Below the pieces are notes generated by a model, which was not told where the DNA came from, searched no databases, and saw only the letters and a list, made by a program, of their open reading frames with translations. DNA of 64,000 bases from Dysidea avara (lineage: Eukaryota; Porifera; Demospongiae; Dictyoceratida; Dysideidae). Made by a program: the position numbers and the translations under genes. Shown one piece after another: positions 31,401 through 40,400 of the stretch. The DNA lies in the NCBI RefSeq assembly GCF_963678975.1, contig NC_089272.1, positions 23,935,471-23,999,470 on the forward strand, written 5' to 3'. Every line of letters begins with the position of its first letter. Position 1 is the stretch's first letter.

Positions 31401-34400
31401 AAACCCGAATGCCCCATGTTAATATGTAACACTTCCCATCAGTATCAGGCTAATGGCCTGCACAGGGTGATCAATCACCCAAGCCAATATGAGTACAGCC
31501 ACTGGATATATTATATATGCATACCTAAAAATTTCGATTATGGGTCAGCAGCTACTGTAGTACATTCTCGGTATGATGATCCGACAGATCCTAGAGGTAT
31601 CACGGTGAATTTCAGTTGTGCAAGTTTAGTGTTTTAATCAGTGCTATTGAATCATTTATGGAATAATTGATATATTGTAAGCTTGCTTATAGAGTGGTTA
31701 CTTCATGCAGAGTAGTAACATTGTGATGGGTGTGTGGTCTGTATTCAGAAACATGTGGAAAAGATTGGTGCAAAAGCTATATCACTAGTTCTCACCTTAG
31801 CCCAACATTTTTCAACTCATACCTAGGATAGCGAGAATAACAAAACGCTCTCCATCTGAGTGGTTTTTATGGCAAAATCCATATGACATGAGCATAATCG
31901 ATCCCCACAATTGATTTCAACCTTATCTCACTTCCCAGATGTAGTCTGGGCAGCTCTTTGATAGGAGATGTGAAAGTGTTACATGTGTGTTAATGTTGGT
32001 CACTTGACTAACCTTTCTTATGTGCCCTTGCTCCTAAGATGCCAGTCCAGTAGAAGTTCTTCGCCTCCCGCAAACTGATGTTTGTGGTGGTGGTTTGGTA
32101 AATGTACTTTGCCCTGATTGCCATGTTTGATTCTTTAAAATTATTTCTTTCTAGTTTTTTGAGGTCAAATATCTAAGGCCCTAAACTTCTGAAACAATTC
32201 TCGATACTTGGGCCAGGAAGGGATTTGGCATCCAGAGGCATTCTGTGTGCCAAGTACCTTCCCTTAAGCCACAAAAGGAGACCCTCCGTAACTACATAGA
32301 GAGGAGGTGTTTCCTTTACCCAAGTATCAAAGTTCCTGTGTGAGTGCCTGGTATCCTGATGCAGAGGTATGGCATCACCCACAACTGATAACATGTATTA
32401 TATTTACATGATTATTATGTACATTCATACAATTTGAAGTCTGCACTTGGGTAACTCCATAGTATGTATACACTAACGAAAGAAAACTGTATGTGTAGTT
32501 TAGTTGTACTACTGATTCCCAGATTCCCAGTAGCAATTGACTTGGAGAGTTTAGCTACCTCAGTGGGTGGAGGCCGGATATATCGCTGGAAGGCATTGCT
32601 TCTCCAGCGACCTAGCATCTGGATGTGGGTGTCTGAGATGTTTGCCAGTGATGCCGAGGTTGCTGCTCCTATACGAAAACTATGGGTATTATAGTGGTGC
32701 CTGTTTAACTTCAGTTTCCCCATAAGGCTTTGGAGAGCTGAGCGGAACATAGAGTTTGTCCAGCCTTTTCCTTCCTTGGTGATGAAAAGAGGGCCTGGGT
32801 GACTGTTTCGTCTTGCCAGGTAAGATAGCACTGCTTTAACTGGACAAATAGTTGTGTCGGTGGCACCGACGTAGACTTGTGCACCTTGTTTGAATGGGTC
32901 CGTCTTTGACTGCTTTAGAAACAGTTGAAGTAGGCGGGGTTTGGTTCTGTTGTCAACCGTGACATCTTGAAGTGAGAGGTGGCGGGATGAGTTGTATGAG
33001 CCCTTTGAGGGGATTGTGAATTCACTGACTCTTAGAAGGCCGAAGAAGGCAAGACAGCACATGGCCCACAGAGTGGTGTTGTCATAGGTGGGTTGTTTAG
33101 ACAGGAGATGTCTGATTTTTCCGAGTAGCTGAGTGGTGATTGGGAGACGCTTCCTCCTTGAGTGAACATCAGCCTGACGCTTTTTAATGCCTCTCAAGAT
33201 GAGGTGAAGCTGGGGTGTCAGTTGTTGGCTGAAATGGCCGTGCAGTCCTTTACAGATGTGCAGGTGTCTAACTGCTGATAAATACACTTTAATGGTTCCA
33301 TGGGAAACATTGGAAACTGCCAGATGTGTTGTAAACAGCGTCAGAGCACCTTCGGATGCAGGGAGTGGCTTAATTCCTGCTGCCTTGCAGAAGTGAAGAT
33401 ATCTTCTTTGACCAGCCATATAGGTGGATCTGCTTGACTTGGACAAGCCAGTTTGCAGGATAGTCTGGTAGTTGAAACTCAAAAAGGCACACAACCCAGA
33501 AAAAAAATGGTATAAAAGCACTTTTTTGCTCCTATGTATAAAATTTAATGGAGAACAACATATCAAAAGTCCCAAAAAATCCACTTTGAAGAAAAAATTT
33601 TACAGCCTTTTAAAATTTTGCTATAACTAACTGTATTTTAAATTGCTAATTAAGCTCTTAAAGTACTTGAGAAGCAAGATTTTGATACAGATGAGAAACA
33701 GCTGACATTTGAACAGCTGGACATTTGTCAACAAATAATATCTCAATAGGTTTGTATTACGTTGGCATGGTTACCATTCATTTTGGTGGACTTTGTTTGG
33801 AAATGTTTGCTAGATATTGTTAGTGCAGTTTAAAGCTCCTTGAAAGTGGCTACATAGATATGGTGAGTTTATTTTGTGAAGCAATATAGTTTTACTATCT
33901 AGCTTATAGACATATATCATTATTTTAGGTTTAAAATGGTAGAAAACTGCACTACAAATAAGTTCCAGGAAGACTGTTGTGTCATCTGTCAATTAGGTTT
34001 TGAAGGTGAAAAACCAGTAACTGTAGCAGGAAAAGGTACATTTACTTTGATAAAGTATAGTGAAGAGCATGGGGAATATGAGCTTAAAGAATACTTAACT
34101 AGATGTATAAATTCAGCTCAAAGCAGAAGTGTTTTGGTACATAAAAGCTGTCGTAGAGATTTTACAAGAACTTACAGCAGTGTTGAACATGAAAATGCTC
34201 CCAGTGCTAAAAAATTGAGGTCTGGTTTGCTACCGTTTAACTGGAAAAAGGAATGTGTGCTTTGTGGAAGTAAAGCTAATTTTGATACTCGCCATCCAGA
34301 AAGGTCAAAAGTACACAAGATTACTACACTGCCTATTAAAAATAGACTCCTCGAATGTTGCCAAAGGCGAGGTGATTCATGGGGATTGGAAGTTCAAGAG

Positions 34401-37400: not shown

Positions 37401-40400
37401 GTTTGATGGCTATGGATACAGCCCATCAATTAAAGATCAAGAACACCAAAGAAGAATTAGAAAAACTTGTGCAGATATCCATCTAAATGAGTTAATGATG
37501 GCTCACAATAACCAGCAAGTATTTCTTTCAAACAATAAAAACAAAAATCAGTTTATTCAGCTGCTGAGCTACTACTTACGACAAGGTTCTCACATTGTTC
37601 ACAATAGTACTGGTGATGCTGACACCATGATAGTTAAATGTGCACTTGACTTTGCTTCACAAGGGAATGAAGTCACTGTAGTGTCAGATGACACTGATAT
37701 ATTGGTCCTTTTAATTCATCACTGGAAAATAAACATGAGTGCTGTGTATTTTAAATCAGAAGCAAAGAAGATGGTGTGGAAAATACAAGACATTATCAAT
37801 AATGCTGGTGAATTGTTTGCATCACATATACTCTTCATTCATGCATGGAGTGGTTGTGATACCACATCTGCTACATTTGGACAAGGCAAAACGTTCTTAC
37901 TCAAAAAGTTTAACAAAGAGATTGAAGAGTTACAACAGATAACATCAATATTTTCAGAGTCTCGAATAACAGCAGAAGAGGTTGGTAAAGCTGGCAGTCA
38001 TGTATTCGTTATTTTATATGGTGGTAAAAAAGAAGAGTCCTTGAGGGACTTACGATACTACAAATATATGGATATGGTGGCATCAAATAGTACATCTCTG
38101 AACCCACAAAAACTTCCACCTACAGAAAGGGCTGCCTTTTATCATAGTTTAAGAGTTTATTTACAGGTAATGCTATGGAAGAGACTTTTAAATGAACATG
38201 ATGATTTGGACCCCCAGCAGTGGGGTTGGAGGCTTGACCGTAATGTGCTAAGACCAATTATGACAGATGTAGATGCTGCACCAGACAGTTTACTGCAGTT
38301 TGTACGGTGCAAATGTAAGTTGACATCCAAAAACCCTTGTGGAACCAACACATGTTCTTGTCAAAAAAATGGTTTGAAGTGTGTAACAGCTTGTGGGGAC
38401 TGTCGAGGAGAAAATTGTGAGAATTCAGAAGAGGTTGAAGAAAATGATGATACCAATGAACAAATTTTCAACTGTTAAACAGAATTTTATGCACACTACT
38501 ATTACTGGTATATCAAAACCAACTATAAATTAGGAGATATTAAAACTTTAATAACTTCAGGAAAGAAAATCTTAGTCAAAATGCATTAGGGCTGCTGTAT
38601 ATTAGTTAACTGGCCAGCTCAATTTTGCTATGATAACATACCAAAAGTTAATTCATCATAAAACATTTTCCACGAGAGGGATTTTTTTGGGATTTTGAAT
38701 ATGTTGTACTACAAACCAATACATTTCAAATGATACCAAGTTTGCTTTTATACCATTTTTTCCGGGTCAAAATCCTCAACTACCTGACTAGGAGCTTTTG
38801 GGCTTTGCTGAGGAGCCCACGGATGTGGGTATTCTGCTGGTGGCCACCTATAGGTGAATGACCAGCAGTGATCTAAAACATTTCCCATGACAGTGTGCCC
38901 TTATGCATTTTTATTTATTTATTTTTTTAAATTTATTTATTCTGAATAAGCAGTGTGCACTTAATACATTCTATTATTAACATTCTCAATGAACAGTATG
39001 CAATCATACATTTGGGAACAAAGACACCGTGCGGCTAAGTGCAGTATACAGTTATAACATACACTGAGTTATGTGTGAGGTGTTTGTCTGGTGCATTCAG
39101 ATCACTAGGAGTGGATCTGCAGTCTGTTCATGGTTCGCTTGAAGTGGCGCAGAAAAGAAGGTGAAGTCCAGTCCTGCTTTTGGGGTGATACCAGTTTTAA
39201 AAGGGGTGTTGGCATCGTCACAGGGATTCTGGAGACATGAGGATTTGCCTGAAGAAATTCCATTGCTTTATTTCTTTAGAGCTGGTCCGCGGCAATGTTT
39301 ACTGCTCCAGGGATATGGGAAGCAACTACTCTGATGTCGAAATGAGCAGAGAAGAACCAGAGACATCGCACAAATGCATGGTAACTGGTTCCTTGGAAGA
39401 ACCTTTGTTAATAGAATCAACGACACTCCTGTTATCGCACTTGAATTCTACTCTGTAGCCAGATAGTAAAGGCCCCCCATACAGCACAGCTTAAAACTAT
39501 TGGGACAAGTTCCTTGGTCATGATGTCCCTTCGTGACCACTCATTGCACCACGCCAATTGCATCCACTGAGTCCCAAAGACTGCACCGCAGCCCCAGGTT
39601 CCCGATGCATCGGTGAGTATCTCGTGGTCAGGGAGAGAACAATTGAAGAAGCTGCGACCATTCCAAGAAGAGGCAAAGAGGTGCCACCATCTTAAATCAG
39701 ACTGGAAGGCTGTGTTAAGGCGAGTATAATAAGACAGATGCTTGAGGCGAGCTGCTGTGCGGTACATTCTGGATAAGAATGTCCTCCCTGGGGATACTAC
39801 CTTATAGCATGCTGTAGAAGGCCCACCAGTGAAAGTATCTCTCTTTTAGTGGCTTTCTTTCGAGTTAACCAGGAAGCAACTTGGAGGCGGATTCGTTGTA
39901 ACTTATCATCGGGCAAGCGTGCCTGCATGCTTTGGGAGTCTAGTGTAATCCCTAAGAAGGTCAAGCAATCTGAGGGTCCCTCAACCTTCTCTAAAGCCAG
40001 GGGAATTCCCAGCGTAGAGCATATATCCTTGATCTCAGATAGGTGATTAGAGCATGTGGGGGACTGCGGGGGGCCCATCGTCAGGAAATCATCCAAGTAG
40101 TGGAGTACTGGTGTGACCTGCTGTTGTTCAAGTATCCATGACAGTAGATCCGCCAGAACATTGAATAACTTGGGGGCGGACCTGAGTCCAAAGGGTAGGC
40201 AGGTGTCAATAAATATGTGCTGATCCCATCTCATAGCTAAGAGATGGCGGTCTGCTGGGTGAACCGGTAGAAAGCGAAAGGCACTCTTGATGTCTACTTT
40301 TGCCAGCAGTGTGCCCTGGCCAATCTGCTTGATATGTTCAATTGCCGAGTCTACCGTAATGTACTTCAGGGAACACAACGTCTTGGGGATTCCTACATTA

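Follow-up and report, generated by a model that had tools for sequence, protein, structure and literature searches.

A likely AcademX-type DNA transposon with a FEN1/XPG-like nuclease region interrupts a DIRS-type retroelement in the sponge Dysidea avara

We examined a stretch of 64,000 nucleotides from the genome of Dysidea avara (NCBI RefSeq assembly GCF_963678975.1, contig NC_089272.1, positions 23,935,471 to 23,999,470 of the forward strand), here called the window and numbered from its first letter. Its content alone points to a eukaryotic genome. It harbors a genuine 5330-bp element with paired inverted ends and a 3-bp target-site repeat, which is likely an AcademX-type DNA transposon that inserted in a DIRS-type retroelement, inside the gene for its tyrosine recombinase. 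Three open reading frames (ORFs) of the element appear on the plus strand in the ORF list (33903-34535, 34536-36344, and 36310-38478). The features of the element are given below, with residues of the third ORF counted, here and throughout, from position 36310.

33461-38790, plus strand: whole DNA transposon, 5330 bp, delimited by inverted ends and the GGA repeat
33458-33460, no strand: left target-site repeat GGA, directly outside the inverted end
38791-38793, no strand: right target-site repeat GGA, directly outside the inverted end
33461-33602, plus strand: left terminal inverted repeat, imperfect, about 142 bp, agreeing at 14 of the outer 15 bp
38659-38790, minus strand: right terminal inverted repeat, about 132 bp, pairing with the left repeat
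33936-34535, plus strand: first ORF with two CxxC...HxxC modules, ending in the stop at 34533-34535
34536-36344, plus strand: second ORF, candidate DDE transposase core with D248 (35277), D409 (35760), and E458 (35907)
36310-37239, plus strand: start of the third ORF, from the ORF list, probably continuing the transposase, with Pfam DUF1924 below cut-off
37282-37890, plus strand: FEN1/XPG-like nuclease region, from the spacing pattern of D327, D366, D436, D438, D461, D463, D517, and a GxGK turn
38308-38418, plus strand: cysteine-rich tail with CXC-like spacing, from the cysteine positions

The outermost 15 bases at the left, TAGTCTGGTAGTTGA (33461-33475), are identical at 14 positions to the reverse complement of 38776-38790, and an inner 19-bp block (38743-38761) is fully complementary to 33502-33520. 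The gapped inverted repeat spans 142 and 132 bases with a score of 97, compared with 65 for the best of 2,000 shuffles. When the two 300-bp end regions were shuffled, 14/15 ends together with a matching 3-bp repeat never arose (0/300). It counts against our interpretation that the element is present as one copy, no second one being seen in the window. Apart from self-matches of the element and of its ends, a blastn comparison with the window returned a single match of 26 bp. A scan of the window for further end sequences, allowing up to three mismatches, gave five matches where 4.2 were expected, and this count includes the two ends of the element.

DIRS-type retroelements combine a recombinase with a reverse transcriptase, and the transposon sits inside the recombinase ORF of such an element, which flanks it on both sides.

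32415-33460, minus strand: interrupted ORF, tyrosine recombinase of the DIRS-type retroelement, with Pfam matches below the curated cut-off
39432-42627, minus strand: remainder of the host DIRS-type retroelement, with RVT_1 at 6e-17 and further ORFs without a Pfam match

The recombinase ORF matched Phage_int_SAM_4 (9e-5) and Phage_integrase (1.2e-4), both under the curated cut-off, and the reverse transcriptase lies across the insertion from it (39797-40759; Pfam RVT_1, 6e-17). In silico excision of the element with one GGA leaves the recombinase frame open. We rejected this open frame as proof of exact insertion, since the other two frames are open as well. Two results limit what the empty site can show: none of the three frames is closed across the join (18 + 39, 35 + 30, and 26 + 110 residues), and the 8 to 12 residues upstream of the join are not significantly like a second retroelement copy in the window (two identities; 1,561, 920, and 1,191 of 5,000 shuffles equalled this likeness). 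Because of both, the empty site is compatible with exact insertion and no proof of it, and the boundaries therefore rest on the inverted ends and the GGA repeat. The second copy is a degraded retroelement of the DIRS sort at 44223-48465 on the minus strand, with an RNase H-like ORF (RT_RNaseH, 0.0011, below cut-off) and a recombinase-like ORF judged by eye and without a Pfam match. At the DNA level it matches the first copy over short stretches, with 74% over 163 bases and 81% over 53 bases.

The first ORF carries CxxC at residues 15 and 107 and HxxC at residues 69 and 171, and the resulting CxxC...HxxC modules are probably DNA-binding zinc modules, judging by their residues. Likeness between the two modules is not significant (153 of 1,000 shuffles were as good), and no Pfam match to this ORF was found at E up to 1. 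In the second ORF, D248, D409, and E458, picked by eye and by analogy with related proteins, are the likeliest DDE residues and would be the catalytic ones. Pfam searches of ORF pieces, run with HMMER filters on and an E limit of 10, gave no match for 35061-36050 of this ORF; for its first 175 residues, the best match was CDK5RAP3 (E 0.00092; 18.6 bits versus a cut-off of 22.6), followed at 0.05 to 0.11, likewise below cut-off, by DUF7078, LdpA_C, and YopH_N. Among PDB sequences, a single chain matched the second ORF (E 1.9). The piece 36310-37200 had DUF1924 as its sole Pfam match (E 0.015, below cut-off), and 36310-37239 probably continues the transposase. None of the three ORFs was matched in NCBIfam at E up to 1. 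The reading frame is broken by the stop at 34533-34535 and by a frame change within 36310-36344. An earlier note on this DNA, made from the letters, had described these three ORFs with their two breaks, the cysteine-rich start, the paired inverted ends, and the flanking GGA, all of which held; the probable DDE core that it named is a proposal here. Just upstream of the first ATG of the first ORF, a GTGAGT...TTTTAG stretch (33863-33928) was seen by eye and is possibly an intron in a 5' leader.

Within the third ORF, D327, D366, D436, D438, D461, D463, and D517 correspond to D34, D86, E158, E160, D179, D181, and D233 of human FEN1, all of which are unchanged in Pyrococcus FEN1. These seven acids bind metal in FEN1. 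Their intervals are 39, 70, 2, 23, 2, and 54 residues in the third ORF and 52, 72, 2, 19, 2, and 52 in human FEN1, and seven residues separate D517, or its counterpart, from the first G of GxG in both. A spacing pattern of the seven acids and GxG-K, with tolerances, was matched by the third ORF and by 78 of 81 FEN1 proteins. None of 119 other ORFs matched it, a background from which FEN1- and PolA-like strings had been left out. Among 20,000 shuffles of the third ORF, two matched the core and none the full pattern. The acidic pattern of the earlier note, whose residue numbers are correct from 36424 and become D327, D366, D436, D438, D460, D463, and D517 from 36310, kept its FEN1 order and near-FEN1 spacing, except that D461 fits FEN1 better than D460. 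From its sequence, the third ORF very likely encodes a PIN-type nuclease, which probably belongs to the FEN1/XPG branch. With the FEN1/XPG 5'-nuclease family it shares the seven acids and the GxG-K turn, in the same order and at near spacing; it differs in having no significant sequence profile match and in that the nuclease region lies inside a transposon ORF.

Several observations weigh against placement in the FEN1/XPG branch. The spacing pattern is post hoc, having been drawn up after viewing FEN1, PolA, and the third ORF, and E. coli PolA as well as two PolA-type viral loci fail it. Human FEN1 has a first acid interval longer by 13 residues and a GxG-K turn longer by one. Neither XPG_N nor XPG_I, the latter a profile that the earlier note had named, matched the ORF pieces in Pfam at E up to 10. 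A FEN1 hidden Markov model (HMM) built from 81 proteins (human FEN1 and 80 archaeal loci, with the locus L001 described below left out) scored 16 of 200 shuffles above the nuclease region, and the matches listed included neither the third ORF as a whole nor the second. With hhalign, 10 of 100 shuffles outscored the nuclease region against FEN1, although its best path aligned VFDG, GDAD, and the DxD motif to the corresponding FEN1 motifs. Smith-Waterman alignment gave shuffles as good in 34 of 1,000 cases for human FEN1 and in 208 of 1,000 for PolA. Structure predictions made without an alignment were unusable (mean predicted local distance difference test scores of 35.0 and 32.8) and lent no support to a FEN1 fold.

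The failure of the FEN1 profiles in both the HMM and hhalign comparisons would suit a PIN-like nuclease of the NYN type, as opposed to a FEN1/XPG flap nuclease, and so would the Pfam ranking: the 337-residue nuclease piece had as its sole matches NYN_YacP (E 0.0066), 5_3_exonuc_N (0.11), and PIN_4 (0.14), all below cut-off and with NYN_YacP at the top. These three families we take to form one PIN-like clan. The whole third ORF matched NYN_YacP at 0.047 and DUF1924 at 0.098. Among PDB sequences, the nuclease piece had one match (E 0.86). The G-x-D...GxG-K turn, which lies near the FEN1 distance, argues against the NYN type, and we regard that assignment as rather unlikely. For the XPG/FEN1-like nuclease proposed in the earlier note, motif order and spacing were thus retained, while a significant XPG/FEN1 profile or structure match was not obtained. 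The same applies in part to its CXC-like tail. A cysteine-rich run is present (cysteines 667, 669, 677, 682, 684, 691, 695, 698, and 703), and cysteines 677 to 695 form C-x4-C-x-C-x6-C-x3-C, a spacing that is presumably that of CXC domains. The other profile named in that note, CXC, had no Pfam match at E up to 10 (VESA1_N appeared at 1.4, below cut-off). Among PDB sequences, the third ORF matched five SET-domain methyltransferases (E 0.78 to 1) via this tail.

The Academ superfamily includes the lineages AcademX and AcademH, named in a passage of PMC10045372 that cites Kojima 2020; in that passage, AcademX makes target repeats of 3 or 4 bp and AcademH of 9 or 10 bp, and the difference is related to the nuclease and helicase that the lineages encode. 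The element shares with AcademX a target repeat of 3 bp (AcademX: 3 or 4), a nuclease-like region, the lack of a detected helicase motif, and terminal inverted repeats, here with 14/15 outer identities and about 140 bp when gapped; no tested feature differs, the comparison being one of descriptions. Membership in AcademX, judged by the printed description (3-bp repeat, nuclease, and no helicase motif), is likely. With AcademH it has in common that it is a long protein-coding DNA transposon, whereas AcademH has repeats of 9 or 10 bp and a helicase in print and the element has a 3-bp repeat and no helicase motif. A simple six-frame scan for Walker A/DEAD-type motifs found only the GQGKT of the nuclease turn, and no helicase was among the Pfam matches of the three ORFs. 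The AcademX nuclease is of the XPG type, and our literature search found no text with both whole words Academ and XPG. In length alone, the element (5330 bp) falls in the class of curated bivalve Academ elements, for which an excerpt of PMC10294476 gives a mean of 5565 bp (n = 100). The Academ-like label of the earlier note therefore agrees with printed AcademX in the 3-bp repeat and the nuclease-like region, and falls short in the significance of the XPG/FEN1 profiles.

As the Academ label rests on repeat length and nuclease, the element could instead belong to another or unnamed superfamily with 3-bp target repeats that gained a PIN/FEN1-type nuclease independently. In the printed passage, however, this pairing of repeat length and nuclease describes AcademX, and the length suits Academ. 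Furthermore, the second ORF contains neither CxxC nor H(3-4)H, the motifs by which an excerpt of PMC12730594 defines CMC, and by the definition excerpted from PMC9587614 it also has no C/DxxH of Kolobok, the flanking repeat being GGA instead of TTAA. We consider such a separate origin unlikely. A different question concerns the state of the copy, which looks slightly broken by its one stop and one frame change. That there are just two interruptions in about 4.5 kb, and that the frames overlap at 36310-36344, would also fit an intron or programmed frameshift in a functional copy; no second copy shows either interruption conserved, and this interpretation seems improbable to us.

For an AcademX element, the mechanism that we infer would most likely be cut-and-paste. 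The cysteine modules and the cysteine-rich tail may bind the inverted ends, and the DDE core would cut and join with a 3-bp stagger. During excision or insertion, the FEN1/XPG-type nuclease might act on ends with a flap or gap by trimming or cutting a strand, and would probably process a flap or a second strand. A bolder version, which we put forward as a doubtful one, makes the flap-type nuclease a catalytic partner that would process the strand left by the DDE enzyme and help set the 3-bp repeat, amounting to a two-nuclease cut-and-paste. We know of no tested role in transposition for the nuclease of the AcademX lineage. If the element is AcademX, its pairing of transposase and nuclease is already known, and the view of the earlier note that this pairing is unusual gives way to the nuclease-bearing AcademX in the printed passage (PMC10045372). 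The element alone changes little, because that lineage is already in print; its contribution is one more copy, with clearly marked ends, of a transposon lineage that has been little studied.

Searches of contig collections for relatives say little, because these collections are mainly viral and prokaryotic. No homologue of the third ORF was found in viral contigs or genome contigs, nor in phages by tblastn; a 100-residue nuclease piece had none in viral contigs, and a FEN1 query found no match there. Three DNA motif scans of the viral contigs, with patterns partly modelled on relatives, yielded no relative, and their one match L001 was rejected as lying within an unrelated ORF.

Elsewhere in the window, an ORF at 5371-5925 on the plus strand contains a HIRAN domain (PF08797, 1.2e-5, above cut-off). 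Long satellite arrays, whose units measure about 122 bp and 31 bp, occupy 21169-27986 and 59582-63986, and smaller ones lie at 10081-10543, 17117-17565, and 17787-18662.

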